A stretch of 29,973 bases of DNA, from positions 1-29,973 of the IMG/VR virus record IMGVR_UViG_3300042402_001352; one strand, written 5' to 3'. Position 1 is the stretch's first letter; each line of letters begins with the position of its first letter. Under the pieces are notes generated by a model. The model worked only from the letters and a program-made list of their open reading frames with translations. It was not told where the DNA came from and searched no databases. The stretch is from a virus. Shown here piece after piece: positions 8,448 to 22,664 of the stretch. A program made the translations under genes and the position numbers.

Positions 8448-10499
8448 TTACGCTCCTATGCTCACGCGGTGTATTGCTAGTCGACTACTACTCGATATGT
8501 CAACAGGTCCACCACTGACTTGTCTTATAGCAACTCTAACAGCATCTCCTGCAGAGGCCGGCATTACAGTTGAGTAGTGTAGATAACTACCAGTCCAAGA
8601 ACCATTGAAAATTACAACTGCTTTAGTGACATCAAGGTTAGTATCTATAGTAAGAAAGCTACCCGGGTTTAATGTTACTGTGGTTGAGAAATATACTGAC
8701 ATGTTGATCTGATAGTAACCTGTGTATGGTACTGTAAATGTTCCAGTACTATACGAATTAGCAGTGTCAACTGTGTCAACAAACTGTATAAATGAGGCAC
8801 TTGCTCCGTCGTTTACTGTCTGCGTAGTTGTTGTGGCAGCAATTACTGTAACAGGACTATAACTTTTTAGTACACTACCGTCACTGAATGTAATACCATT
8901 AGATACAGTAAGCTCGTTTTCTACATTGACATCGCTGCTAAAAATTGTTTTAGGAGTAACAGTAATTGCTGAACTGTCTGCTGAATCAATCAATGATGTA
9001 AAGATATTTCCAGTAAACGTACCGCTAAGTGTGCCGCTTACTGATCCTAATGCGGAATTATACGTAACTTCTTTTGTACTAGAATCGTATTGTACAATGC
9101 CACTTGCACCAGTTTGATTTCTAACGGGATTAACATAGAAACCAGCCGCTGGTGCATCTAGTGTAAATCCAGATGCGTTAATTGCAATGGATCCTGAAAC
9201 AGCTGACGGATACCCTGCTCCATTGCCTATAGAAATAGCGTAATCGCCTTGACCTGCACCTGCGGCGGCTCCGATAGCAACAGCACGATTCCCTTGATTA
9301 ACATTGCCTGCACCAGAACCAATAGCAACAGCGTAGTCTCCTTGATTAAATCCACCTGCTACGATTCCGATAGCAACAGAGTCTAAACCTTGCAGTCCGT
9401 CGCCCCCTGCGCCTATACCTAGTGCAATTTTAGTATCTTCAGTTCTTAATGTTGTTGCAAATATTCCGCCATAGACTTTGTTTTCTACAGCATCAATAAT
9501 CTTAGTTGAATCGTCGCCAAACACTGAACCTCGTAAATCAAACACTGGATTCACTGCAATGGTTAAAGTGTCAGTGGCCACATTTTTACTCAGTGTGATG
9601 GTTGCATCACTGGCAATGTTTAATGTGTCGCTGGCTGCATCAGCTGCCAGTATATTAGCTATATCATTGTTGACTACAATTTGTGTAAACGCATTTACCG
9701 CAGGTGCTGAGTTGGTAATAGTCACGTCACCTGTGGCAATGTCGGTACTAACTGTGATACCTACACCAGAAGATACAGTTATGACACCAGTGTTGGTTAT
9801 TCTCAAGTTGTCACCAGTCGCGCCGTTTATGTTAATACCTGCGCCTGTGGTTCTGCCTGAGGGCAAAGCAGTGACATTCTGTAGACTGCGAACACCAGTA
9901 TTGGTTATTGTTGCCACACCACTGCCTGTGGCAGTTGATATACCCGAACCTGCTGCTACGCTAAGTATGCCAGTGTTTGAGAATGTGATTGAGTCTGCTC
10001 CTGAACTCACCGCCAGTCCCACGCCTGAACCTGACAAGAAATTCACTGTGTCACCGAATGTGGTTGCCACTATGGACAGATCGTTGTTGATTTGTATTTC
10101 TTTGAAGAACGTTTTATCAGGATCTATGATCAAACTGGTGCCTACACCAGTTAACGGATCACCACCCACAGTAGATCCTGTAGGTAGATTAATGATACTG
10201 CCCACACCTTTGACCTGTGCGCTGCCTGCCCATAAGCCGTTTAATGGATCCACGGTAGTGTGTTCTGCTGTAAACACTGATCGCCACTGACGAGTTATAT
10301 CTCCCAAACTGCGTAAATTATTTGTAGTAGGAGTAACATCGGTATCCAACGATGAAAAATCTATAGGAGCCAGTCCTGACCCAGTGCCAATAGTAGCAAC
10401 TAGTATGTCAAAGTTTTCATTGACTTTCGTAAACGCTTCATTGACTTCACTCCATAATACAGGAGGACGACCTGGGGTTATATTATTATTAAAAGGCAT
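8448..10499 (-). CDS. Tail fibre with YadA-like repeats and C1q/TNF-like tip, 683 aa
   Basis: The N-terminus holds a variant anchor (WSEVNEAFTKVNENFDIL, about 17-34). Residues about 60-350 are beta-rich, with repeating GxGISTATGSGVATITNTG-type strands. About residues 370-440 hold four to five YadA-head-like units (YAVAIGSGAGNVNQG, RAVAIGAAAGAGQG). After a short linker with a coiled or shaft segment, residues about 560-683 look like a C1q/TNF-like jelly roll: GTFTVPYTGYYQINMSVYF is the characteristic strand pair, followed by hydrophobic strands and a basic C-terminal strand (SRLAIHRVSIGA). C1q-like tips are trimeric ligand-binding heads. ATG at 10499 overlaps the stop of the giant gene (TAATG) and has GGGAGA upstream. 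Confidence 0.8.
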   Translation of the reverse strand: MPFNNNITPGRPPVLWSEVNEAFTKVNENFDILVATIGTGSGLAPIDFSSLDTDVTPTTNNLRSLGDITRQWRSVFTAEHTTVDPLNGLWAGSAQVKGVGSIINLPTGSTVGGDPLTGVGTSLIIDPDKTFFKEIQINNDLSIVATTFGDTVNFLSGSGVGLAVSSGADSITFSNTGILSVAAGSGISTATGSGVATITNTGVRSLQNVTALPSGRTTGAGININGATGDNLRITNTGVITVSSGVGITVSTDIATGDVTITNSAPAVNAFTQIVVNNDIANILAADAASDTLNIASDATITLSKNVATDTLTIAVNPVFDLRGSVFGDDSTKIIDAVENKVYGGIFATTLRTEDTKIALGIGAGGDGLQGLDSVAIGIVAGGFNQGDYAVAIGSGAGNVNQGNRAVAIGAAAGAGQGDYAISIGNGAGYPSAVSGSIAINASGFTLDAPAAGFYVNPVRNQTGASGIVQYDSSTKEVTYNSALGSVSGTLSGTFTGNIFTSLIDSADSSAITVTPKTIFSSDVNVENELTVSNGITFSDGSVLKSYSPVTVIAATTTTQTVNDGASASFIQFVDTVDTANSYSTGTFTVPYTGYYQINMSVYFSTTVTLNPGSFLTIDTNLDVTKAVVIFNGSWTGSYLHYSTVMPASAGDAVRVAIRQVSGGPVDISSSSRLAIHRVSIGA

Positions 10500-13400
10500 T
10501 ATGTTCTCCCTACTGCTATTTCAATTGACCCTATGTGATCTGAATCGTATGCTATCAGAGCTTTACCAACCACGGTGCCTACTCTTACATCACCTGTGGC
10601 AGCCACTGCCACTCCTGGAATTCCTGATGTGATCAAAATATCTCCTTTTGATATTTTTCCTACTACCTTGCAGGGCACACGACCTTGTAGTGCAACTAGA
10701 TTCTTCAAGCCTGGACAAGCATCATACATGATAAATGCTGCATTATCAGATACCACACCAGCTACTCTAGTATCACCTTTGATATTGCTCATGGTAACTT
10801 CTTTATCCCCGCCGAATACAAGAACAGTTCCTACTTCATATTCTCGATCACCTTCGTAGTATTCTGCAAGGTCAGCAGCATATGTGGCCTGCATTCTAGA
10901 CCCTGGGTTCAAGCTCCAGGTACCTATGATAGTACCAGGGTTGCCATTGCCACCAGTAGTCAGTGAACCACCACTACCAACATTCAGACCAGTACAGGTG
11001 ATAGTGCTGGTTGATGTAATTGCACCCACCGCAGTGATAGGAGCATTAGAAACACCATTCTGAGTTTTGAATTCATGACTATCATTCCAATACGATGTTT
11101 TATCATCTGTAGCCAACGACCCTTCGCTGATCAGTATACCACCAGCACTGTTATATCCGTAATAGCGTAGGTACCCACCAGTGGCAGTTGTTGCTGAATC
11201 AACAGCCAATTGCGTGTCAATCTTGATATTAGATACATCAACAGTTCTACCACCAAAGTCACCATTCGTGTCTCTGACAATGATTTCATTGGCTCCGATG
11301 CTGCTGCTGCTTCCAGCAGATCCAGCTACTACACTATAGGAACCATCTGCTGTTGCAGTAGCACCAGTTCTTCTTAAGAATCCCACAGTGGAGTATTGTG
11401 ATTTTTTAATGGCCAGTCCATCGTTGACCACATCAGCAAATGCCACTGCGGCAGCGTTGGCTGTGCTCACACCACTGTTACCGATCAGTGTGTCTGGAGC
11501 CAACTGTGCAAGATCTCCTAGCTGAACACTGTTGGCTTTGATGGTAACATGTCCGTCAGTGACGTCAAAATCCGCATTGCTGAAACTGCTTAATCCGCTG
11601 GCTGCTTGTATAACAGCAGCAGATCCCACAGGCGCTGCAGACTGTGCAGTAGCAATGGTCATTGCCAGCTTGCTCTGATCAATAGCTGCGGCAGCATTTA
11701 CTTCAGCATTGTTGACCACACCGGCGTTTAACTGCACGTCTATGTTGTTTAGGCTAGAGTCTATGCCAGTGCGTAGATCAAAGGTCAAGTCGCCAGTGAC
11801 ACTGGCATTTACAAAGATGTCGTCAACACCAGTGAACACCATTACTTGGCCGCCCTGCACATTGGATCCCGCATAGTTTTGTAAATTGGTAAAAGTCAGA
11901 CTACGAAGATTTACTGCATCTTGAGGGTCAGTTGGATCGGCAACATTAGCAATCTTATTGAAGTTAAGATTCATAGTTGACTGCATGCCCAGCTGGCCAT
12001 CTAGACTCATGAAACCGCCTGTGCCAAATGGTATTATTTCTGCTGCTACAACAGCAGCACCTTCATGTGAGATTCCTAGTCGACGATCTATGTATTTGCG
12101 TGTGGCATTCTCTGTGGGCACAGTATCTGTGGCGTTGTCTGTAAATCCACTGTCTGTAGAAAATTCACTGACTGGCACACCACGTTTGAATCCAATACCG
12201 TCCAAATTGCTCAGTGCAATAGAACTGGAGAATGTGACCTGTCCTGTACCTTGGTCAACTCTAAAGAACGGTCCTACGGAGAAATTACCAAATTGATCCG
12301 TGGTAACATAAAATACACGACCCACATCACGTTCTTCTGTTTCTTTGGAGTCGTCTACCGGATTAACACTACCTCCATAAATTTCTTTGGGATAGTTGGT
12401 ATCTGCATAAGAACCTGTGCCGATCTCAAGCAGATCATGTCCAGTAACTCGAGTAAGAGCAATTCTAATAGTCAAAGTGCCAAGACTGCCGCTGGTACGC
12501 ACAGCCACGGCAGCTTTAATGGTGTAACTTGTGGACAAATTGTTTATGGCATTGACCAACGGACGGTTCAGTGTGATTCTGCCAAACACGGTGCCAGTTA
12601 CACCAGGACCTTGATACGAACTAATCACATATTCTTCGCCCAGATAAACAAACTTAGCTGCAGATAATCTAGATATTTCAGTAGTTGAAATAGCAATTAC
12701 TGCAACAGCATTGTCACCTGCGCGGCCGGTAACTAGCCCTACTTTTTGCACACCACTCTGTATACCGGAGGTTTCTATAGCCGGGTCACCAGGCACATCT
12801 GTAATTTGGAATGTATCAGGATTTCCTGTGCTGACAACAAAATACCTATTTTGAATACTTATTCCTGTGGGCAAAGCACCAGTGGTAGTGAATTTGACCA
12901 CGTCTCCCGCGGAGAATCCATGCCCGACCAGTGTTACCACAGCTGGATTAGCGATTGATATAGTGCAGGTTGTACCAGTTGGTGTTGAAGATATAAATTC
13001 TCCAGGCTGGAATACCGTGATATCTATATAGTTGTAGTTTTCTCTGGTCTGGGTGAGAGTCAACCCCACGATGTTATATCTATGAATGCCACTACCTGCA
13101 GTTGTGATACTCACAGCAGCACCGTTTTTCTGTGTGCTTATACTGAATTGTGTTTCTGTGAGATTGTTAGGCAACACATAGTAAGTTTCTCCCACTAGCA
13201 ATGGAGCAGGTAACGTGCCTGTGGTAGTGAAACTTATGGTGTAGGCCTCTAACAGTTTGTGAGTTTTCACGGCTTTGATACTCAGTCCAGCACCATTTGT
13301 CAATGTAAATGTGCTGCCGCCTGGACTTGAGCTGACTGTGAACGTGTTATATGTGGGCTGTGTGATAATATAATAGGTAATGCCGCTGACAAAGTTATTG

Positions 13401-16400
13401 GCAGTACTGGTAGGAATTATTTTATCACCTATTCTCAGTTTGTGATTACCGCTGGTGGTACAGACGTTTGAAACTATATCTGTTATAGTCAATGTAATGC
13501 GGAATATTGTAGGTGTAGCCGTGTTAACTAATATATCATAAGGACCATTATTATCTGCGGTATTAGTGAATGACAATACACGATACACTGTGCCTGGAGT
13601 TTCACGTAGCTTCAATCCAGTAGAAGGTCTTACAGCAACATCTTCCAGACTGCCGGTGAGCAGTGTATTGCTGAGCTGACGAATTGTCATTTTGGTGTTG
13701 TTTGTCACCACCGCAAATAGACCCGCTGTGGCGGTGCCGAGCCCAGTGCTGAGATTCAATCTTGCCACCCCCACTGGAAGATCGGTGGTAGTCACACTAG
13801 TCACTGGGTATCTATATATTTCTGTGCCGTGCAGAATTTCCAATTCTGATCCACTTAGTGGTGTGTAGTCGAAATTATACACAAATATAGACAATCCACC
13901 TGCCACGTTGGCATATGCGCCACTAGGGAAATAACAATCTACTCGTTGATTTAGATCTTGATACAGAGTGGTTGGGGTAGGAACTTCAAGTGGATCTGCA
14001 CCTTCTGCAACCAAGGCATAATTACCATGAGCATTTGAACCGCCAACCGCACGAATCTGTCCGCCAGTCAGTGAGTAGTAGGCAATATGGCAGTAGTATG
14101 TGAACATAGACACTGCTTCAGTTAAGCCACCATTGGCCACAACTATGCCATAGCCGAGGTCGTTGATCTGTGTGAAGTCGTTACATAACATGCTTCTGTT
14201 ACCAGGCATCAACAACTCATATCGATTGCCATTGAAATCCACATAGCTCACAGCTGATGCCTGGAGCGCAGCTTTATTGGTCTGAATGATAGTTCTAACA
14301 GCAATGTTATTAGCAGTGTATCCCACAAAGCTAGGTTCAGTTATGGCTACCACTGCTTGCGCAGCTGTGAAGTTGGCAGCACCGATGATTGAACTCATGC
14401 GGGTCATTAGGGTGTTGATTGTAGCAGCTTCTGTGGCCGAGGCAGGAGTTCCTGAGGCTCTAGTCACTGCAGAATAACTCACAGCTGGAGCCAAGTCCTG
14501 CACAATTTGTCCTAGCAGATAATTCAAATAGGCATGCCAGGTTGCAGATTGAGCTTGTGTTAGCGAAGAATCAGTGATTACTGCACCTGTGAGATTGTTG
14601 TAGAATTTCAGTGCTCTAGTGCGTGTGGCCACATTGCCGCCATAAATCAAGTCATGTATCACAGCGTCCACAGCTTGTCTAATCTGATATTCTACTTCAC
14701 TGGCCACATATACCGTGGCAGTGGTAAATCCACTGAGATTGCCTGCTATCTGTGCATCGATATAAGCAATTAGTTCAGCGATTTCATAGTCTCTGTTTGC
14801 CAACAGCAGTGCATAGGCATTAGTGACGTTAGCAGACAGTCCAACCGGTAGTGTAAATGACAGAGCAGGTGCTGCAACAATCCCGCGTTCTATAGTGTCT
14901 GCTATGACAGTATTGCTCTGATCCACAGTTTCTTGAATACTAGGATAAGCAGTAATTAGATCGTTTACAGAATCATGAACGAACTCAATAGCTTCTAATG
15001 TGATTCGTCGTTGATCCGTCAATACCACTGCGCTTTGGCTGAGTCTGTAGGTCAAGCCATTTTGTCTGGTCCAGTAGTTGGTGCCTAGCACAATATCCCT
15101 TCCCAGGCCATCTAGGATCAATCCAGTGTCTCGACTGCAGGCAGCAGCATTGTAAGTGAATACTGAGAATGGCCAAGGCGTGGTTTCATCTAATACAAAT
15201 GTAGCTGTGCTGCCGTCCTTGTCATAGACAAAGTCTCGGACATAGTTTATTCTATATACAGAATCCGCTACAATAAATGATGCTGGAAGTTGCGGAAATC
15301 TATCAAGATCACTGACTTGCAATCTTGTTGGAGTAGCCACGACGTCGATATTGAATTCCAGGTTGCCTGCAAATCCGTCTGTGAACATACCGCCAGCAAA
15401 CACCTGTCTGTCCTTGCTGCGGCTGAATGAAGCACACTCTTGAAAGTATGGAGACCTTGACAATATCTGACCTGTGGGATCCAATACTCCCATGAAACCG
15501 CCATGACCTATGGCTGATATCGCTTGCCAACGCACGGTATCGTTGGCTAGGAACACGTCCATCTCTTCGTTGTCTTTGGGATAATTCACTGATCCCGATC
15601 CATCAATTACATCCTTGAACGCTGTGATCAAGTCTGTGATAACCCCATCAGCGCCCACCTCAGACTGGAACGCAGGATCAATAGTCTGTAAAAATAAATT
15701 CTGTTTAGGTGAGGCAACAGCAGTGTTAGTGATAATATCTTGAACTAGCTCTTCAAAAAGATCTATCACCGCCAGATATTCACTGAGCTGTGTGGTAATT
15801 ACTGTGTTACCAATTTCACTTTGATAATATTTCAGTGCTGCAGATATAGTTCGATTATATTCTCCGTAGTCTAGATCAAAAGTAAGATCGTCAACTAAGA
15901 TACCTATGCTGGTTTTGTAGAATGGTTTATCATAATTAAAAGTAGAAACAAAAGGTATAACATTATTGATTTTGCGGAAATCAATAGTAGCAATGATTTC
16001 TTCCTGTAGAAACTGTCTGTTCAATCTAATCAGGTCCGCAGCTGCTTCATATCCGCCTTTGTTTTGTATTTTGGGATAGACAGGTTGAGTGCTGTTCTGT
16101 AGATAATGATAACCGTAGGCCTGTGTGACCACATCAAGGCCATCGATGACTGGATCTCTACGGAATTTATTAAATGCCCAAGGACTGGCAGATGTGCCTG
16201 GACGAGGTCTAAAAATAACTCTACGGAATTCATCTCCTACTACAGAAACGTTTGCAGGAACTTTTAGTGGATAGTTTTCGAAATATTCTCCACTTTCTAC
16301 CAGCACAGAAATCTGTATGTTTCTAGCAATGTCTCCATAGGTTATACTTTCACCTATTTGAAAATTACCAGACAAGATATCCACATCAAAAATTTCATTG

Positions 16401-17965
16401 CCACCACTTTCTAGTTGTCCTGAATGTGCCACAATCTGGGCCAATGCGTTGCTGGTCTTGCCTCGAAGAAATAGTCCTTCGCGTATATCACGTCCTCGGA
16501 CAGCTTCAACAGTATTGGTAGTAACATCACCTGTGAAGTCTGTGCGCAGGCCTGCGGTATAGATCAAGAATCTAGGAAGGTCCACTACGAAATTTGGCAA
16601 TGAACTAAAGCCTGAACCTTTGTCTGTGATAGTGATACTGGTAATCGATCCGCCAGTGACCACAGCGGAACCAAATGCTCCAGTGCCTCCGCCACCTGTG
16701 ATTCTTACAGAAACCAAACTATACCCACTGCCGCCATTACTAATAGATACTGATCCCACTTTGTATCTGATATCAAAAGTAGCACCAGTTCCTATAGGAC
16801 CGATCCCCACAGGTGCAGCACTAGTGCTGATTGTGGTTGGCACAGCAGTAGCACCTGGTAGTGCAGTATATGTTCCAGTAGAGACGACTTTAAAAGTAAC
16901 AATAGCACCAGGAGTAGTTAGGGTAGTTAATACTTCTATTAAACAAGCCCCACCACCTGAAGGCACAGTTCCTCCGGAGACTTGTAGTATATCACCGGGA
17001 TAATAATTTGCACCTACGGTATTAATTACAACAGTGTCTACGCTCATACGTATAGTGCCAGCGAAATCTATACCAGATGTAGGAGATTCTTCAATGGCAG
17101 TCAACGAACATTCGGTAGCTCCGTTATTAAAAGTTAATGTTTTTTCGTAAGGCCCAATAATAGATCGTGATTCTAAAACCAATTGTTCTGCACGTTTGAG
17201 AGCAGCTTCGAGAGTTCTGTAAGCATAGGCCAAAGCACGACCTTGCAGTGCCTGAGATACGCCCGGGCGATCATCTTGACCACTGAGCGCCACATACAAA
17301 TTCACACTAGAACCAAATGCCGAACTATCAACATACTGTTTTGTAGCTGCGATCAATCCGCCGTAATTTGTGTCGTCATCTGGTTCTGGACTTCTAGAAA
17401 GTATCAGCGGTCCGCTCATACGTCCAAAGCTGGTATCTGTAAGACCTGTAGCAGGATCTATGGCATTGACCCCAAATCTAGATATTTTAGAATCTGCATA
17501 ATTCTTATTAACTAATTCGTGACTGTAAATTGGTGCCAACGGGCTAATTGTTGTTCCGGCATCAACTATACGATATTGATTACCACCAGAGCGCATGGAC
17601 AAATCGCCGCCCAGCTGTGGTGTTGTATCAGCAGCTATTTCGGCAAAATCCGCATTAATTGCAATTTGATTGGGGTTAGTGGTAAAATCAATGCTGATAC
17701 CACTGCCTGCAACAAGTTTTTTAAATTGCAGTCCTGACTCTGTGTTATTCACAGTGACTACAGGAGTATTGCCAGTAACAACGTCGTTCTGACCCACGTA
17801 GGTAGCAGGAGTATCTTCTAGGCCTGTGAATTGTAATCTTTCGCCGAGCCCTAGTGAGCTGTAAAGTTCTCTAAAGTTGTCATTAACTTTACGGAATGAA
17901 TCTCTTATACTGTCGCCGGTGCCGTCGTTGCCAACGGTGCCGATATCAATAGTCTTTCTTGCCAT
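10499..17965 (-). CDS. Giant fibre/structural protein with beta-helix-type domain, 2488 aa
   Basis: Residues 1-40 are the shared anchor (IDIGTVGNDGTGDSIRDSF, then RKVNDNFRELY). About residue 216 on, NLYVALSGQDDRPGV and the following TLEAALKRAEQL resemble the entry of pectate-lyase-like right-handed beta-helices; VLVESGEYFENYPLKVPANV (about 555-575) fits the same fold. GSGY/GGGTGA beta repeats lie near 405-470. Helical segments near 680-745 and 1105-1160 look like copies of one domain (DL-x-YG ... ALKxY). A block near 1830-1970 contains VGRVFYVTTDQFGNFSVGPF, a motif seen in marine T4-like phage structural proteins. The last ~130 residues (AADLAEYYEGDREYEVGTVL on) form a conserved fibre C-terminal domain, possibly a chaperone or cleavage domain. 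Probably the longest tail fibre or a baseplate-attached adhesin. Confidence 0.75.
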   Translation of the reverse strand: MARKTIDIGTVGNDGTGDSIRDSFRKVNDNFRELYSSLGLGERLQFTGLEDTPATYVGQNDVVTGNTPVVTVNNTESGLQFKKLVAGSGISIDFTTNPNQIAINADFAEIAADTTPQLGGDLSMRSGGNQYRIVDAGTTISPLAPIYSHELVNKNYADSKISRFGVNAIDPATGLTDTSFGRMSGPLILSRSPEPDDDTNYGGLIAATKQYVDSSAFGSSVNLYVALSGQDDRPGVSQALQGRALAYAYRTLEAALKRAEQLVLESRSIIGPYEKTLTFNNGATECSLTAIEESPTSGIDFAGTIRMSVDTVVINTVGANYYPGDILQVSGGTVPSGGGACLIEVLTTLTTPGAIVTFKVVSTGTYTALPGATAVPTTISTSAAPVGIGPIGTGATFDIRYKVGSVSISNGGSGYSLVSVRITGGGGTGAFGSAVVTGGSITSITITDKGSGFSSLPNFVVDLPRFLIYTAGLRTDFTGDVTTNTVEAVRGRDIREGLFLRGKTSNALAQIVAHSGQLESGGNEIFDVDILSGNFQIGESITYGDIARNIQISVLVESGEYFENYPLKVPANVSVVGDEFRRVIFRPRPGTSASPWAFNKFRRDPVIDGLDVVTQAYGYHYLQNSTQPVYPKIQNKGGYEAAADLIRLNRQFLQEEIIATIDFRKINNVIPFVSTFNYDKPFYKTSIGILVDDLTFDLDYGEYNRTISAALKYYQSEIGNTVITTQLSEYLAVIDLFEELVQDIITNTAVASPKQNLFLQTIDPAFQSEVGADGVITDLITAFKDVIDGSGSVNYPKDNEEMDVFLANDTVRWQAISAIGHGGFMGVLDPTGQILSRSPYFQECASFSRSKDRQVFAGGMFTDGFAGNLEFNIDVVATPTRLQVSDLDRFPQLPASFIVADSVYRINYVRDFVYDKDGSTATFVLDETTPWPFSVFTYNAAACSRDTGLILDGLGRDIVLGTNYWTRQNGLTYRLSQSAVVLTDQRRITLEAIEFVHDSVNDLITAYPSIQETVDQSNTVIADTIERGIVAAPALSFTLPVGLSANVTNAYALLLANRDYEIAELIAYIDAQIAGNLSGFTTATVYVASEVEYQIRQAVDAVIHDLIYGGNVATRTRALKFYNNLTGAVITDSSLTQAQSATWHAYLNYLLGQIVQDLAPAVSYSAVTRASGTPASATEAATINTLMTRMSSIIGAANFTAAQAVVAITEPSFVGYTANNIAVRTIIQTNKAALQASAVSYVDFNGNRYELLMPGNRSMLCNDFTQINDLGYGIVVANGGLTEAVSMFTYYCHIAYYSLTGGQIRAVGGSNAHGNYALVAEGADPLEVPTPTTLYQDLNQRVDCYFPSGAYANVAGGLSIFVYNFDYTPLSGSELEILHGTEIYRYPVTSVTTTDLPVGVARLNLSTGLGTATAGLFAVVTNNTKMTIRQLSNTLLTGSLEDVAVRPSTGLKLRETPGTVYRVLSFTNTADNNGPYDILVNTATPTIFRITLTITDIVSNVCTTSGNHKLRIGDKIIPTSTANNFVSGITYYIITQPTYNTFTVSSSPGGSTFTLTNGAGLSIKAVKTHKLLEAYTISFTTTGTLPAPLLVGETYYVLPNNLTETQFSISTQKNGAAVSITTAGSGIHRYNIVGLTLTQTRENYNYIDITVFQPGEFISSTPTGTTCTISIANPAVVTLVGHGFSAGDVVKFTTTGALPTGISIQNRYFVVSTGNPDTFQITDVPGDPAIETSGIQSGVQKVGLVTGRAGDNAVAVIAISTTEISRLSAAKFVYLGEEYVISSYQGPGVTGTVFGRITLNRPLVNAINNLSTSYTIKAAVAVRTSGSLGTLTIRIALTRVTGHDLLEIGTGSYADTNYPKEIYGGSVNPVDDSKETEERDVGRVFYVTTDQFGNFSVGPFFRVDQGTGQVTFSSSIALSNLDGIGFKRGVPVSEFSTDSGFTDNATDTVPTENATRKYIDRRLGISHEGAAVVAAEIIPFGTGGFMSLDGQLGMQSTMNLNFNKIANVADPTDPQDAVNLRSLTFTNLQNYAGSNVQGGQVMVFTGVDDIFVNASVTGDLTFDLRTGIDSSLNNIDVQLNAGVVNNAEVNAAAAIDQSKLAMTIATAQSAAPVGSAAVIQAASGLSSFSNADFDVTDGHVTIKANSVQLGDLAQLAPDTLIGNSGVSTANAAAVAFADVVNDGLAIKKSQYSTVGFLRRTGATATADGSYSVVAGSAGSSSSIGANEIIVRDTNGDFGGRTVDVSNIKIDTQLAVDSATTATGGYLRYYGYNSAGGILISEGSLATDDKTSYWNDSHEFKTQNGVSNAPITAVGAITSTSTITCTGLNVGSGGSLTTGGNGNPGTIIGTWSLNPGSRMQATYAADLAEYYEGDREYEVGTVLVFGGDKEVTMSNIKGDTRVAGVVSDNAAFIMYDACPGLKNLVALQGRVPCKVVGKISKGDILITSGIPGVAVAATGDVRVGTVVGKALIAYDSDHIGSIEIAVGRT

Positions 17966-18037: not shown

Positions 18038-18325
18038 ATGTTTCTCACAACCAAAACTCAACTAAATCAATACTCTAGACTCAGTAAACACGGAGTCGAA
18101 CATCAATATAAAAGAAAAAAGACTGTAGTAGTGTTGAGATGTGATGACTGTGATTCGATATTTGAAAGAGATCTCAAACACATGGATAAGAAACGCCTCA
18201 GCAACAATTTCTTTCATTGTTGTGGGTCTTGTGATGCCAAAAGATTTGCTCAACGCACAGGAGTCGAACAAAAACAGATCTGGAATTTACCTGCTAGTTT
18301 AGACTTACCTGTGTCTAAATTCTAA
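18038..18325 (+). CDS. Small Cys-rich zinc-finger-like protein, 95 aa
   Basis: This is one of only two convincing plus-strand genes. It is basic in its first half (KRKKTVVVLRC) and has C35-x2-C38 followed by H60-C61-C62-x2-C65, a spacing suited to a zinc ribbon or treble-clef knuckle. The C-terminal part (QIWNLPASLDLPVSKF) is conserved-looking. It faces the iscA gene and its last 11 bases overlap the iscA 3' end tail to tail. No ribosome-binding site is evident, but GTAAATA sits four bases upstream of the ATG. A nucleic-acid-binding or HNH-like role is possible, but no catalytic His-Asn-His pattern is clear. Function unknown. Confidence 0.65.
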   Translation: MFLTTKTQLNQYSRLSKHGVEHQYKRKKTVVVLRCDDCDSIFERDLKHMDKKRLSNNFFHCCGSCDAKRFAQRTGVEQKQIWNLPASLDLPVSKF

Positions 18326-18641
18326 ATGATTCGCCGCAGCCGCAGCGGTCGCGCTCATTGGGATTGATAAAATCAAAGCCTTCATTGAGCCCATTGCGGA
18401 CCCAGTCCATGGTCAACCCGTCTAAATAGGCTAGACTTTTGGCATCTACTAACACAACAAATCCGTCATGTGCAAAATTAGTTACTCCTACTTCAGATTC
18501 GTAACTGTCCACGTATTCTAACACATAGGCTAGCCCACTGCACCCTGTAGTCCTAACACCTATGCGAATGCCTACGCCGTGACCACGTTTTGCTAGATTC
18601 TGTTTGATTCGTTTACTGGCTGTGTCGGTTACGGTAATCAT
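18315..18641 (-). CDS. iscA: IscA-type iron-sulfur cluster carrier (HesB family), 108 aa
   Basis: A-type carriers accept Fe-S clusters from IscU, or deliver iron or clusters to apo-proteins, in the cytoplasm. The length matches bacterial IscA. The three ligand cysteines are present: C34 in RTTGCSGLAYVLEY, and C100 and C102 in the C-terminal CGCGESF. The block GLNEGFDFINPNERDRCGCG points to IscA rather than ErpA or SufA as I remember those sequences. The start at 18641 lies within the end of iscU (29-base overlap in another frame), so the two are translationally coupled. An isolated phage HesB protein would be unsurprising; adjacency to a complete IscU makes a functional assembly unit likely. 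Clients are not known from this window. Confidence 0.93.
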   Translation of the reverse strand: MITVTDTASKRIKQNLAKRGHGVGIRIGVRTTGCSGLAYVLEYVDSYESEVGVTNFAHDGFVVLVDAKSLAYLDGLTMDWVRNGLNEGFDFINPNERDRCGCGESFRI

Positions 18642-18999
18642 CTACGGCTGCTTTGATAGCATCTTCTGCTAGAATTGAACAATGTATCTTAACTGGAGGT
18701 AGGGCTAGTTCTTGGGCGATTTCGGAGTTTTTGATTGATCCGGCTTGGTCAAGTGTTTTTCCTTTGACCCATTCTGTAACGAGGCTCGAGCTCGCGATAG
18801 CCGATCCGCAGCCATACGTTTTAAATTTTGCATCTGTAATAATACCTGTATCATGATCAACCTTTATTTGTAATTTCATAACGTCACCGCAAGCAGGTGC
18901 GCCAACCATGCCCGTACCCACATCTTGATCATTTTTATCAAATGATCCTACATTTCGGGGGTTTTCGTAATGATCAATTACTTTGTCCGAGTATGCCAT
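18613..18999 (-). CDS. iscU: IscU iron-sulfur cluster scaffold, 128 aa
   Basis: IscU is the cytoplasmic scaffold on which cysteine desulfurase IscS, with an iron donor, builds [2Fe-2S] clusters before HscA/HscB-driven transfer. All key residues are visible: C37 and D39 in GAPACGDVMKLQI, C64 in TYGCGSAIASSSLVTEW, H106-C107 in KIHCSILAEDAI, and the HscA-recognition motif LPPVK at 100-104. The length is full. As I remember the enterobacterial protein, long blocks are almost unchanged, suggesting acquisition from a proteobacterium and continued selection. It overlaps sod by 26 bases at its start (GGAG upstream of ATG 18999) and iscA by 29 bases at its end. No iscS, hscA, hscB or fdx is in the window, so host partners are probably used. 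Confidence 0.96.
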   Translation of the reverse strand: MAYSDKVIDHYENPRNVGSFDKNDQDVGTGMVGAPACGDVMKLQIKVDHDTGIITDAKFKTYGCGSAIASSSLVTEWVKGKTLDQAGSIKNSEIAQELALPPVKIHCSILAEDAIKAAVDDYRNRHSQ

Positions 19000-19531
19000 T
19001 GATTATTCTCCAGTTTATTATCTTCCATATATTGGTTAGATACTTTTTTTTATCAGCTTGATAGTCTAATGCCCATGCATGCTCCCACCAATCAATCAAC
19101 AACACAATATCATTTCTAACTTCGTGATTGACAATGGTTTTGATCTTGCCGTCACGAGCTAAGTAAGCCCATCCGCTGCCCTGAATCTTCATGGCTGTTT
19201 TTTCAAATTCTTCTTTGAATCGATCAAAAGTACCAAAGTGTTTTTCTATAAACGCCAAACTAGCATCATAGGGTCTGTTGGATCCCTCTGGCTTTTGTAG
19301 TTGACCAAAATAGATATTGTGTAAAAACGCACCAGCTTCATTGAAATCGTCATCACCTTCGTTCTTGTTATATCGATCAACATAGGCTTTATACAGCGTT
19401 CCGTAATGATAATCTATGGTTTCTTTAGATTTTACAGGTGCAAGATCCTCGCGATCGTATGGCAGTGACAACTGTATGAGTTTGTCTTTTTTGCCTTCAA
19501 CAATGAATTTTTGAATGAAATTGTATGTCAT
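18974..19531 (-). CDS. sod: Fe/Mn-family superoxide dismutase, shortened, 185 aa
   Basis: The enzyme converts superoxide to peroxide and oxygen. The four metal ligands expected for the family are present: H42 (TIDYHYGTLYKAY), H71 (AFLHNIYFGQL), D147 and H151 (DWWEHAWALDY). GSGWAYLARDGK matches the usual GSGW block. The segment between the first two ligands is much shorter than in bacterial SodB, and the second-shell residues differ: the gating His after HYG is Leu46, Gly67 sits at the position that is Gln in E. coli SodB, and a His-Glu pair lies near the Mn-type Gln site. Metal preference is therefore uncertain (Fe, Mn or cambialistic). It is the first gene of the sod-iscU-iscA operon. There is no signal peptide, so it is cytoplasmic. 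Confidence 0.88.
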   Translation of the reverse strand: MTYNFIQKFIVEGKKDKLIQLSLPYDREDLAPVKSKETIDYHYGTLYKAYVDRYNKNEGDDDFNEAGAFLHNIYFGQLQKPEGSNRPYDASLAFIEKHFGTFDRFKEEFEKTAMKIQGSGWAYLARDGKIKTIVNHEVRNDIVLLIDWWEHAWALDYQADKKKYLTNIWKIINWRIINGILGQSN

Positions 19532-19573: not shown

Positions 19574-19813
19574 ATGCTAGGATTAATCAAGAAACTTTTT
19601 GGCAGCAAGCCAGTCGAATCTGTTGAGGTGCCTTACAAGGTAGAAACTCCACCAGTTGAAGTTGTTCAGCCTGTAGTTGAGCCAACCGCAGCAGCAGTTA
19701 GTGCTGAAAACAAAGCAGTGGCCGTGGCCAAAGCCAAACGAGCACCAACGAAAAAACCAGCTGTTAAGAAAGCACCAGCGCCGAAGGCTCCACGCAAGCC
19801 AAAGGCTCCGTAA
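19574..19813 (+). CDS. Lys/Ala/Pro-rich basic small protein, H1-tail-like, 79 aa
   Basis: The start at 19574 is set by AAGGAG seven to eight bases upstream; a longer frame from 19511 would begin inside sod and before the promoter. The N-terminus MLGLIKKLFGS is a short amphipathic basic helix. The middle is Pro/Val/Glu-rich (VETPPVEVVQPVVEP). The C-terminal 30 residues are a Lys/Ala/Pro tail (KRAPTKKPAVKKAPAPKAP) like those of histone H1 or low-complexity DNA-binding tails. It overlaps the 3' end of the UV endonuclease gene tail to tail by 50 bases. Inference: a DNA- or membrane-associated basic protein made late, for example for DNA condensation or packaging. No enzyme domain is seen. Confidence 0.7.
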   Translation: MLGLIKKLFGSKPVESVEVPYKVETPPVEVVQPVVEPTAAAVSAENKAVAVAKAKRAPTKKPAVKKAPAPKAPRKPKAP

Positions 19814-20834
19814 CTTTTTTATCCTGTTCGTATAGAGCAAATGAGGCCAAGTTCTTGGCCTTGCTTTCACACATGATGTCTGCCCACGACCTATGTGTCA
19901 ATGCCCAAGAATTAACTGCGGTATTCCAATAAAACCCACTGTGCGCTCGCAGCTTGCCTTTCTTATAGCCCTGCTCTAGGAGGGCCGGAAGATCGGGGCG
20001 GATGTGTCTGGGATGGTCAATAAGACAGTCTTCCCGTGAAACACTATAATGTATAACAGGGCGAACACCACGCCAACTATCAATAACCCTTTTAACACGA
20101 TCGTCATTCGCTTCAATATATTCTCCAGTTTTAATCCAATGATGGTGAATGTCTAGCACCAGGGCACAGTCCTTGACCAACTCAATGCTTGAGTCAATGC
20201 CCCAGGTCATTTCGTCATTTTCGATGGTAAGACAGTTACGGGCCTCGGGTGTCATTTTGCTAAGAGCGTCACGAACACCCTGCGGACCCAGCTTGCCGGA
20301 GATATGCACATTAATCTTGAAGTCCTGGAATGTCTTACCAAAGCCCATCCAACGAGCCATGTCTACGTGGTACTCGAACTCTTCTATGCTGCGTTCTACT
20401 ATGCCCGGGTTAATAGAAGCCAACACGCAAAACTGGCCAGGATGAAAGCTGAGCCTAACATTATTCTGCCTAGCCACATCACCCACCCTGGCAAATCCTC
20501 TTTCTGCAAATGCTCTGACATCGGACTGCCGCCAAAACCACTTCCAACTAGGCTCAGTATATACAGGAAGTATATCACTTGAGAGTCGTACCATTCTAAG
20601 ATCTTCATCTAGTGTTCCTATCCTGCTGACTAGTTTGTAGCAGGCTTCTATGTTTCTTTCCATCAAGTCCCAAAGTCGCTGTTCTGCTTCTTGAGGATGT
20701 TCACGCAACCACCTAACTGTGGTGGAGCCTGTATTTAAGTCGCGGTCAACAGCATTTATTTTCATACCGTCAACTTCGGAAGGATCGTTGATCCATTTGC
20801 AGGCAAAGCCTAGTCGTCTGAGTGTAGTGTTCAT
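19764..20834 (-). CDS. uvsE: UV damage endonuclease (UVDE/UvsE family), 356 aa
   Basis: UVDE enzymes nick DNA 5' to UV photoproducts and other distortions using a TIM-barrel fold with a metal cluster. Diagnostic blocks are visible: RRLGFACKW at the N-terminus, RLSSDILP (about 83), VRLSFHPGQFCVLAS (about 126-140), LTIENDEMTWG (about 205), ALVLDIHHHW (about 225) and RPVIHYSVSRE (about 255). They supply the His, Glu and Asp metal ligands. The length is near the family norm. The start codon 20834 lies seven bases after the -10 of a near-consensus sigma70 promoter, so it is probably an early gene with a leaderless transcript. It provides dark repair for a sunlit-water phage. The C-terminus overlaps the convergent basic protein gene. 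Confidence 0.93.
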   Translation of the reverse strand: MNTTLRRLGFACKWINDPSEVDGMKINAVDRDLNTGSTTVRWLREHPQEAEQRLWDLMERNIEACYKLVSRIGTLDEDLRMVRLSSDILPVYTEPSWKWFWRQSDVRAFAERGFARVGDVARQNNVRLSFHPGQFCVLASINPGIVERSIEEFEYHVDMARWMGFGKTFQDFKINVHISGKLGPQGVRDALSKMTPEARNCLTIENDEMTWGIDSSIELVKDCALVLDIHHHWIKTGEYIEANDDRVKRVIDSWRGVRPVIHYSVSREDCLIDHPRHIRPDLPALLEQGYKKGKLRAHSGFYWNTAVNSWALTHRSWADIMCESKAKNLASFALYEQDKKVTEPLACVEPSALVLS

Positions 20835-20869: not shown

Positions 20870-21659
20870 CGACAAATTTGTCCTGAACGTCCTGAGGATT
20901 TGGTTCTCCGTGAAACACAGCTATGCTACAATCTGGAGGAGGTCGCACATCGTGTTTCACTGTTTTGAATCGCCGCCCACCATGTGCAACAGTGAGTTCA
21001 TCCCTGCTGCGTATTTCCCATTTGTAACTCATGATCCATTCTTTGGGCCAAAATATCATTCTATCTTTGGCTATCTTCCAAATCCAATCTTGATCTCCTT
21101 GCAGCCGCTGTGCCTCTGCGGGTTTCGATTTGAATTGATCGTATATATGACCTTGTGTGCCGTGTGTCCATGCCAATACCGAACTGTTGAGATAATTCCA
21201 ACCGGGAAAAAATTTTCTATTGAAATCGTGGATACCTATAAAGCTGGTAGGATGATATCCAGTGAGCTTGTTCATGTTGGCATGTATGACCACATCTAGA
21301 TCCAAATATAATATTCTTCCCCTGAGAGGCAATGCAGAATCAAACATGTGAACCTTGTGCCACCAACCTCTAGCATAGTTGGCGTTGGGTTGATATATTT
21401 TACGAACTCCGGCAATATCATGTTGATCGTCAGTGAGACAGGCAAACTCATAAGGCACAGTGAGATGCCTAGACACCATATTACGTAGCCGTTCTACATA
21501 TTCCCGGCCGTATTTGTTACCAAATCTCACACACAGCACAGTGATAGGTTCGTTGGGATCCGAAGGCACTACAAGATCAGGATATTCTCCACGTGCTGCC
21601 ATTTTGGCAGCTCTCTTTTCAGCCTTGGCTTGTATGCGTTGTTCTTTTGACAATTCCAT
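20853..21659 (-). CDS. Glycosyltransferase with DxD motif, 268 aa
   Basis: After a charged N-terminal helix ([19 protein letters not shown]) the protein shows a GT-A type nucleotide-sugar fold: [13 protein letters not shown] (about 39-51), FACLTDD (about 72), and the DxD metal/nucleotide-sugar motif D120-L-D122 in [29 protein letters not shown] and the late [12 protein letters not shown] match the acceptor and C-terminal blocks of GT8-like phage glycosyltransferases. The start overlaps the kdsA 3' end by 41 bases. With KdsA and the sialyltransferase-like protein nearby it suggests a surface- or virion-glycan function, either modifying host polysaccharide or decorating virion proteins. Donor and acceptor are unknown. 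Confidence 0.82.
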
Positions 21660-22464
21660 CTATGGCTACCAAGTCTTTTAAAATGTCACTAAGGTCGTCT
21701 AGTTTGATCATATTTGGACCATCACTGGGGGCAGAATCTGGATCTTCATGACACTCCATAAACACAGCTGCTACTGATCCTGTAGCTATAGCAGCTCTCG
21801 CCAGGTACGGGACCATGGTCCTATCTCCTCCAGATCTTTCTCCCATTCCCCCAGGCTGTTGAACAGAATGTGTGGCATCAAAGACCACTGGATAGCCAGT
21901 GCTTGCCATAATAGGTAGACTGCGCATGTCCACCACAAGATTATTGTATCCATGAGTATATCCTCTTTCACATAACATGATGCGTTCATTACCAGTCGAA
22001 GCAATCTTTGCCGCAACATTTTTCATATCGTGGGGAGCAAGAAACTGCCCTTTCTTGACGTTGATGGCACATCCTGTAGCACCCGCTGCCAACAATAGAT
22101 CAGTTTGTCTACAAAGAAATGCTGGAATTTGTAACACATCTATGCCAGCGGCAGCACACAACTCTGCCTGATAACTTTCGTGAATGTCAGTTAAAACTGG
22201 CACTCCAAAACGATGTTTAACTGCATTTAGAATCTTTAAACCTTCATCAATACCGATACCTCGTTTAGTAGAAATGCTACTTCGATTGGCTTTGTCAAAA
22301 CTGCTTTTATAGATAAACTTAATGCCTAGACTATCACAGGTTTGTTTTATGCTGTGTGCGGTTTCGAGTGTATGATCTAGACTTTCAATTTGACAAGGAC
22401 CGGCAATTAATACCAACGGTTCGTTGTTTCCTAATTTTGTATTATGAATGTTAAATGTGCGCAT
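21619..22464 (-). CDS. kdsA: 3-deoxy-8-phosphooctulonate (Kdo-8-P) synthase, 281 aa
   Basis: KdsA condenses phosphoenolpyruvate with arabinose-5-phosphate to Kdo-8-phosphate, a precursor of lipid A-core in Gram-negative bacteria. All signature blocks are present: IAGPCQIES (C24), [77 protein letters not shown] (H199) and [16 protein letters not shown] (E237, D248). Cys24 with H199, E237 and D248 marks the metal-dependent class rather than the metal-free E. coli class. The start at 22464 is chosen because the family begins just before the IAGPC strand, and a GTAAATA element lies five bases upstream. An extension to 22536 would overlap the membrane gene. It may raise Kdo supply or remodel LPS during infection. 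Confidence 0.95.
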
Positions 22465-22469
22465 ATTAT

Positions 22470-22477
22470 TATTTACC
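22470..22477 (-). promoter_or_regulatory. Candidate late promoter GGTAAATA for kdsA
   Basis: GGTAAATA (22477-22470, minus) contains the TAA stop of the small membrane protein gene and is followed after five bases by ATG 22464. The geometry predicts a leaderless kdsA transcript. Confidence 0.5.
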
Positions 22478-22664
22478 AATGCCTGATGGTATTGGCAATA
22501 ATAAAACCACAGGTTATCACGTGAATGATAACCCAAAAAGTTTTTAAGAATAAAACAATGCGAGCTTCACGTAGAGTGAGAATAGGCACATCTGGCCTAT
22601 CCTCATCAGTTTGCCCCATTCTGTGCCCAGTTGCTCGAGCCCAGATGCGTTCAATGCTATTCAT
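22473..22664 (-). CDS. Small single-pass membrane protein, 63 aa
   Basis: A polar N-terminal half ([20 protein letters not shown], residues 1-20) is followed by one hydrophobic span of about 20 residues ([19 protein letters not shown], about 36-54) and a short NTIRHW tail. There is no signal-peptidase site. Its ATG overlaps the TAA of the QueD-like gene (TAATG), so it is translationally coupled. Similar small proteins occur in marine T4-like phages, from memory, with no assigned function. The positive residues near the start suggest the N-terminus stays in the cytoplasm. Possible roles are inner-membrane modulation, for example a lysis or superinfection accessory, but nothing in the sequence decides this. 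Confidence 0.7.

Follow-up and report, generated by a model that had tools for sequence, protein, structure and literature searches.

In Burkholderiales, including the Comamonadaceae, the isc operon for iron–sulfur (Fe–S) cluster assembly has the order iscR-iscS-iscU-iscA-hscB-hscA-fdx, with no superoxide dismutase gene (sod) nearby. Components of Fe–S assembly have also been reported in viruses. Radical-SAM enzymes occur alongside IscU and/or A-type carriers in T4-like marine viruses, and one such genome encodes 12 of these enzymes (Nishimura et al. 2017, PMC5332604). In addition, nifU and sufE were described in 2021 as viral auxiliary genes in the virome of an oxygen-minimum zone and were tied to oxidative/redox stress (PMC8940887). 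The use of these single viral Fe–S genes was unclear. The locus analyzed here contains a conserved and selected unit of three genes, sod-iscU-iscA, located in a slot that appears able to hold a whole SUF pathway.

Layout of the unit and its protein products

The window, namely the whole stretch of DNA analyzed, is one virus record of 29,973 bases. Three minus-strand open reading frames (ORFs) overlap head to tail in it: sod (18974..19531, 185 aa), which is the first gene of the unit, iscU (18613..18999, 128 aa) and iscA (18315..18641, 108 aa). The overlaps are 26 bases between sod and iscU and 29 bases between iscU and iscA, and these positions and overlaps agree with the initial annotation of this DNA. 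The slot harboring the unit is bordered upstream by a gene for a uvdE-like endonuclease (19764..20834, minus strand), assigned by Pfam (PF03851, 123.8 bits) and synteny, and downstream by a gene for a tail-fibre-like protein of 2,488 aa (10499..17965, minus strand), assigned by synteny. Two small ORFs on the opposite strand are constant companions of the triad. One is Cys-rich and zinc-ribbon-like (18038..18325, plus strand), convergent with iscA, and has homologues in 97 of 152 loci; the comparison with Pfam and PHROG gave no match. The other is Lys/Ala/Pro-rich (19574..19813, plus strand), located upstream of sod, with homologues in 85 of the 152 loci and no match in PHROG. A T4-type late-promoter consensus was looked for upstream of sod, and none was seen. 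Beside the slot, positions 21619-22536 encode a conserved KDO-8-phosphate synthase scoring above the curated cut-offs, which suggests lipopolysaccharide-type sugar chemistry by the phage.

The sod product is an Fe/Mn superoxide dismutase (SodFM), as judged by its fold, two Pfam domains and four metal ligands, and is predicted to be active. Both Sod_Fe_C (PF02777, 85 bits) and Sod_Fe_N (PF00081, 38 bits) exceed their cut-offs, and the AlphaFold model (pLDDT 88.4, pTM 0.84) matches solved Mn and Fe SODs in Foldseek with E values of about 1e-14. The four ligands noted in the initial annotation, H42, H71, D147 and H151, are invariant across 27 phage SODs, and so are Y50, H136, W149 and E150. H136 probably corresponds to the second-sphere Gln of E. 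coli MnSOD, and the sequence cannot tell a preference for Fe from one for Mn.

The iscU product is an IscU scaffold according to a curated model and its retained motif, with a predicted role in cluster assembly. It scores 187.5 bits with Pfam NifU_N, which is over the cut-off, and 224.9 bits with the IscU equivalog model TIGR01999 (cut-off 192.4). The IscU copies of five relatives share 78-81% identity with E. coli IscU. Alignment to the E. coli proteins bears out the residues first read from the sequence, with C37, D39, C64, H106, C107 and LPPVK retained in IscU and the three cluster cysteines C34, C100 and C102 in IscA. The window IscA matches Pfam Fe-S_biosyn (PF01521, 60 bits, over the cut-off) and belongs to the A-type carrier family by TIGR00049 (100.1 bits, cut-off 58.8). 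The IscA-specific equivalog TIGR02011 is its best-scoring NCBIfam model, above those of SufA and ErpA, yet the score of 140.6 bits is just below the cut-off of 150.6, and we therefore describe the protein as an IscA-like A-type carrier. In one related locus (L394:10688-11100), the frame of iscU shifts by one base at LPPVK, probably through an error in sequencing; a group I intron is ruled out there by the single-base nature of the change and the absence of an Rfam match.

Phage origin, conservation and likely hosts

The sod, iscU and iscA genes are phage genes and not host contamination. Five independent contigs from other samples, 99.7-100% identical to the window, cross the region unbroken. 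The best relative, G001 (IMG/VR 3300042907_001080, 281,658 bp), encodes a phage terminase and is colinear with most of the window, with 84-96% identity over the longer matches. The contig-purity check proposed in the initial annotation thus finds a shared gene order in these contigs and G001, which rules out a chimeric assembly with bacterial DNA. The window's phages are a family of large freshwater phages.

About 466 relatives of the SOD and at least 599 relatives of IscU were found in viral contigs. The unit itself was counted in 309 viral loci gathered from four sod/iscU scans, in which a few contigs are counted twice. A viral search for the three genes together had been suggested, and the triad proved common, being present in 179 of the 309 loci; 159 of them have the plain sod-iscU-iscA order, and 20 carry an inserted erpA or a doubled iscU. 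The remaining arrangements include iscU-iscA (50 loci) and iscU alone (47 loci). Both overlaps are preserved in most loci, that of 26 bases in 80 of 100 and that of 29 bases in 111 of about 140. As a rule, the unit is flanked by uvdE on one side and by a gene for a tail-fibre protein of roughly 2,500 aa on the other. A second phage lineage has iscU-iscA, with sod also present in a few loci, either between nrdA and nrdB or immediately after nrdA-nrdB-grx. Median dN/dS values of 0.07 for sod and 0.10 for both iscU and iscA demonstrate that each gene is under purifying selection and rule out relaxed selection on the triad. With their active sites intact as well, all three proteins look functional, as first proposed, although their activities are predicted from sequence.

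The nearest bacterial IscUs, with up to 87% identity, are from Burkholderiales, mostly Comamonadaceae such as Rhodoferax and Limnohabitans. An IscU tree of low support and narrow sampling separates the phages from the Burkholderiales by one branch. This similarity suggests Comamonadaceae/Burkholderiales-like hosts, so phage IscU should fit the partner proteins of the host. In contrast, the window SOD shares only 33-38% identity, over the main match, with the SODs of ten Burkholderiales genomes, which makes recent capture of sod from the likely host unlikely, and 42.5% with the SOD of the PA5oct group of jumbo phages. The unit therefore looks put together from two sources.

The partners of IscU seem to be left to the host. 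Searches of G001 by tblastn with E. coli queries detected no desulfurase, HscB, Fdx or IscR, and no Hsp70, hence no HscA, was found. Extending the tblastn search to five other phage records likewise gave no IscS and no HscBA/Fdx, with the exception of a DnaK-type Hsp70 in one of them, G002. That protein starts like DnaK and has only 40.5% identity to E. coli HscA, which rules it out as a phage-encoded HscA. Its gene lies together with an Hsp20-like gene (G002:46274-48695), in a phage that has iscU-iscA near nrdA/nrdB.

Other Fe–S modules in the uvdE/tail-fibre slot

Outside the window, relatives hold SUF modules in the same slot, which points to Fe–S biogenesis as its common theme. In L412 (the same as L517-L519), the order is uvdE-sufC-sufD-sufS′-sod-erpA-iscU-iscA, where sufS′ denotes a sufS-like gene. 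The SufS-like protein of this locus (L412:7489-9992) has neither the PLP lysine nor the active-site cysteine, and the SufC encoded there lacks the ABC signature motif; these degenerate proteins are possible non-catalytic partners of the host SUF system. Related arrangements are uvdE-sufC-sufD-sufS′-iscU-iscA (L086 and L522-L526) and uvdE-sod-sufC-sufD (L529 and L530).

Three further contigs carry apparently complete SUF operons. L528 (7874-12980) has the order uvdE-sufB-sufC-sufD-sufS-sufE-sufT-carrier-tail, L521 (1973-7445) has the same order with a Grx4-type glutaredoxin gene added after sufB, and in L527 (373-6477) sod is located two genes ahead of sufB. Homologues of SufB, SufC, SufD, SufS and SufE occur together in all three, with the PLP lysine and cysteine of SufS and the cysteine of SufE retained. 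In L528, SufB (845.7, cut-off 717) and SufC (278.8, cut-off 212.8) exceed the curated equivalog cut-offs, whereas SufS (432.1, cut-off 475.1), SufE (76.4, 160), SufD (131.5, 222) and the SufT-like protein (133.2, 143.4) score below them. The SufD proteins of the SUF-bearing contigs are short. Around the SUF sets of L521 and L528, many genes share 50-89% identity with counterparts in G001 and its relatives, which indicates that these contigs belong to the same kind of phage. In other phages, sufB is also found without other suf genes; in L544, L546 and L551, from other T4-like phages, it stands by itself among head genes, close to the region of the major capsid gene.

Taken together, the chances seem to us evenly balanced that one phage family keeps a dedicated slot for virus-run Fe–S biogenesis. 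At one end of the range of its contents would be sod-iscU-iscA, to which erpA may be added, and at the other a complete and self-contained SUF module (sufB-C-D-S-E-T-A, with grxD or sod), which would make clusters from cysteine without the host assembly machinery; mixed sufC-sufD-iscU-iscA sets would stand in between.

Possible role of the unit and comparison with known systems

In our preferred reading, to which we assign a probability of about 0.6, sod-iscU-iscA would be a co-expressed phage module for Fe–S supply that works on host IscS/HscBA and mainly serves phage radical-SAM enzymes, with SOD as a shield. The reading is based on gene order, intact active sites, purifying selection, phage origin, the radical-SAM genes of relatives and the absence of the other ISC parts from G001. 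Phage IscU would be supplied with sulfur by host IscS and with iron by other sources in the host, and host HscBA/Fdx would pass its cluster on to IscA and ErpA, the carriers of the phage; the ErpA-type second carrier of G001 is encoded at 173 kb, away from the unit. From these two carriers, clusters would go chiefly to the radical-SAM enzymes and QueE of the phage itself. Solvent-exposed [4Fe-4S] clusters, as in radical-SAM enzymes, are sensitive to superoxide, and SOD produced from the same message would reduce superoxide where clusters are made and used. Phage IscU and the carriers may thereby make clusters once host isc expression fails.

The search for Fe–S clients elsewhere in the genome, as recommended in the initial annotation, yielded 19 radical-SAM matches in G001, 18 of them above the cut-off, and a QueE-like ORF. 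The matches lie mostly in two clusters at 144-152 kb and 230-262 kb (loci L160, L165 and L166), and most of the radical-SAM genes are in a cluster beginning just past the thyX end of the window. We compared non-duplicate records of at least 62 kb, hand-picked from the scans and mostly fragments. Carriers of sod-iscU-iscA have a median of 10 radical-SAM genes per record (n=15), as against 1 in records with iscU without sod (n=12; Mann-Whitney p=0.0006), and densities are 7.2 and 1.0 per 100 kb, respectively, both differences being confounded by lineage. Among records of at least 100 kb, the counts are 19, 14, 12, 10, 8 and 4 for the triad and 5, 4, 3, 1, 1, 1 and 0 for iscU without sod. G070 and G071, which lack sod but carry sufC-sufD-iscU-iscA, have 4 and 5 radical-SAM genes. 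Two triad records of 64-86 kb showed no radical-SAM gene. The link tracks lineage: only one independent contrast falls on well-supported branches, and no phylogenetically corrected test could be passed. A terminase-anchored control is uninformative, since about 177 kb separate the terminase from iscU in these fragmentary records. The enrichment is therefore support and not proof.

The initial annotation had proposed that the unit borrows host IscS/HscBA either to repair or build clusters and protect them from superoxide during infection, or to load the phage's own Fe–S proteins. The borrowing is supported by the intact sites, the low dN/dS values, the Comamonadaceae-like IscU and the absence of a desulfurase and HscA from G001. 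Of the two branches, the loading of own proteins has the stronger support, given the many radical-SAM genes in phages with the triad. A general host-support role, in which an auxiliary metabolic unit stands in for host IscU/IscA during the breakdown of host genes and sustains respiratory and biosynthetic Fe–S enzymes of the host to the end of infection, with phage enzymes not the main client, appears unlikely. It agrees with the host-like phage IscU and with the earlier reading of viral nifU and sufE as host support (PMC8940887), and many phages with zero or one radical-SAM gene keep iscU alone or iscU-iscA, i.e., without many clients of their own. However, it leaves unexplained why SOD-linked modules occur mostly in phages with 4-19 radical-SAM genes.

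The second lineage, with iscU-iscA and sometimes sod beside nrdA/nrdB, raises the alternative that the module maintains the iron cofactor of a phage class Ia ribonucleotide reductase while SOD guards the tyrosyl radical. The NrdB proteins fit this, since all 30 checked retain the diiron ligands and radical tyrosine of canonical class Ia. For the window's lineage, it is contradicted by the longest records: PF02867 (class I/II ribonucleotide reductase) has no match in G001 (281 kb), G044 (270 kb), G050, G052, G070 and G071, which rules out such a client there. Nor was a YfaE-like ferredoxin found in six records tested, and we consider this alternative improbable. IscU binds IscS, and surplus phage IscU could in principle sequester host IscS and starve host functions that depend on it, for example phosphorothioate DNA defence or tRNA thiolation. 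The family's SufS-like protein without PLP lysine and catalytic cysteine resembles a non-catalytic partner, but the complete cluster-binding sites, the co-conserved IscA/ErpA and SOD, and the intact SUF operons of relatives fit cluster making better, so that diversion of sulfur is very improbable. Chance adjacency of unrelated cargo in a flexible island, which the variable region and occasional insertions between the genes might suggest, is equally disfavoured, as most loci share the exact overlaps, the triad is found in two gene contexts and the alternatives that occupy the slot are again Fe–S genes.

If the Fe–S supply reading is true, cofactor supply would be a limiting step of infection for these phages in oxygenated water, and the phage radical-SAM enzymes would provide a defined client set for study. 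In the open-licence full-text literature, we found no description of sod-iscU-iscA as a unit or of a phage SUF operon, and priority is thus not established. The novelty first claimed for this locus stands for the SOD-coupled unit on that basis, but not for phage iscU and A-type carriers, which were known before (PMC5332604); the novelty would lie in the coupling to SOD and in the modular slot, and relatives with SUF sets may be more novel than the window unit.

Among phages, the jumbo phages of the PA5oct group, MIJ3 and Callisto likewise encode a SodB-like Fe/Mn SOD, to which the 42.5% identity refers. Unlike in the window unit, the SOD of PA5oct lies among Clp/heat-shock genes, and this phage has no NifU/IscU and no A-type carrier. 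The annotation of this SOD homologue, EST35_0261 (L195:7989-8537), calls the product hypothetical and carries an ESI-MS/MS note, which suggests that the protein has been detected. The T4-like marine viruses of Nishimura et al. (PMC5332604) combine IscU/A-type carriers with radical-SAM enzymes as the window's family does; SOD is unmentioned there, whereas in the present family sod, iscU and iscA overlap as a fixed unit in a single slot, for which SUF modules are the alternatives. The oxygen-minimum-zone virome (PMC8940887) also shows Fe–S assembly genes in viruses, but as single genes without context and with sufE lacking sufS, whereas sufB-C-D-S-E-T-A lie together on single phage contigs here. 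The phage unit agrees with the bacterial ISC operon in its IscU and IscA proteins and in their order, but sod is placed in front, the genes overlap, and G001 is without IscS, IscR, HscA, HscB and Fdx. Similarly, L521, L527 and L528 share with the bacterial SUF operon (sufABCDSE) a row of SufB, SufC, SufD, SufS, SufE, a SufT-like protein and an A-type carrier, including the catalytic cysteines of SufS and SufE. The phage sets differ in occupying the uvdE/tail slot of T4-like phage contigs; a Grx4-type glutaredoxin is added to one of them, and sod precedes another.
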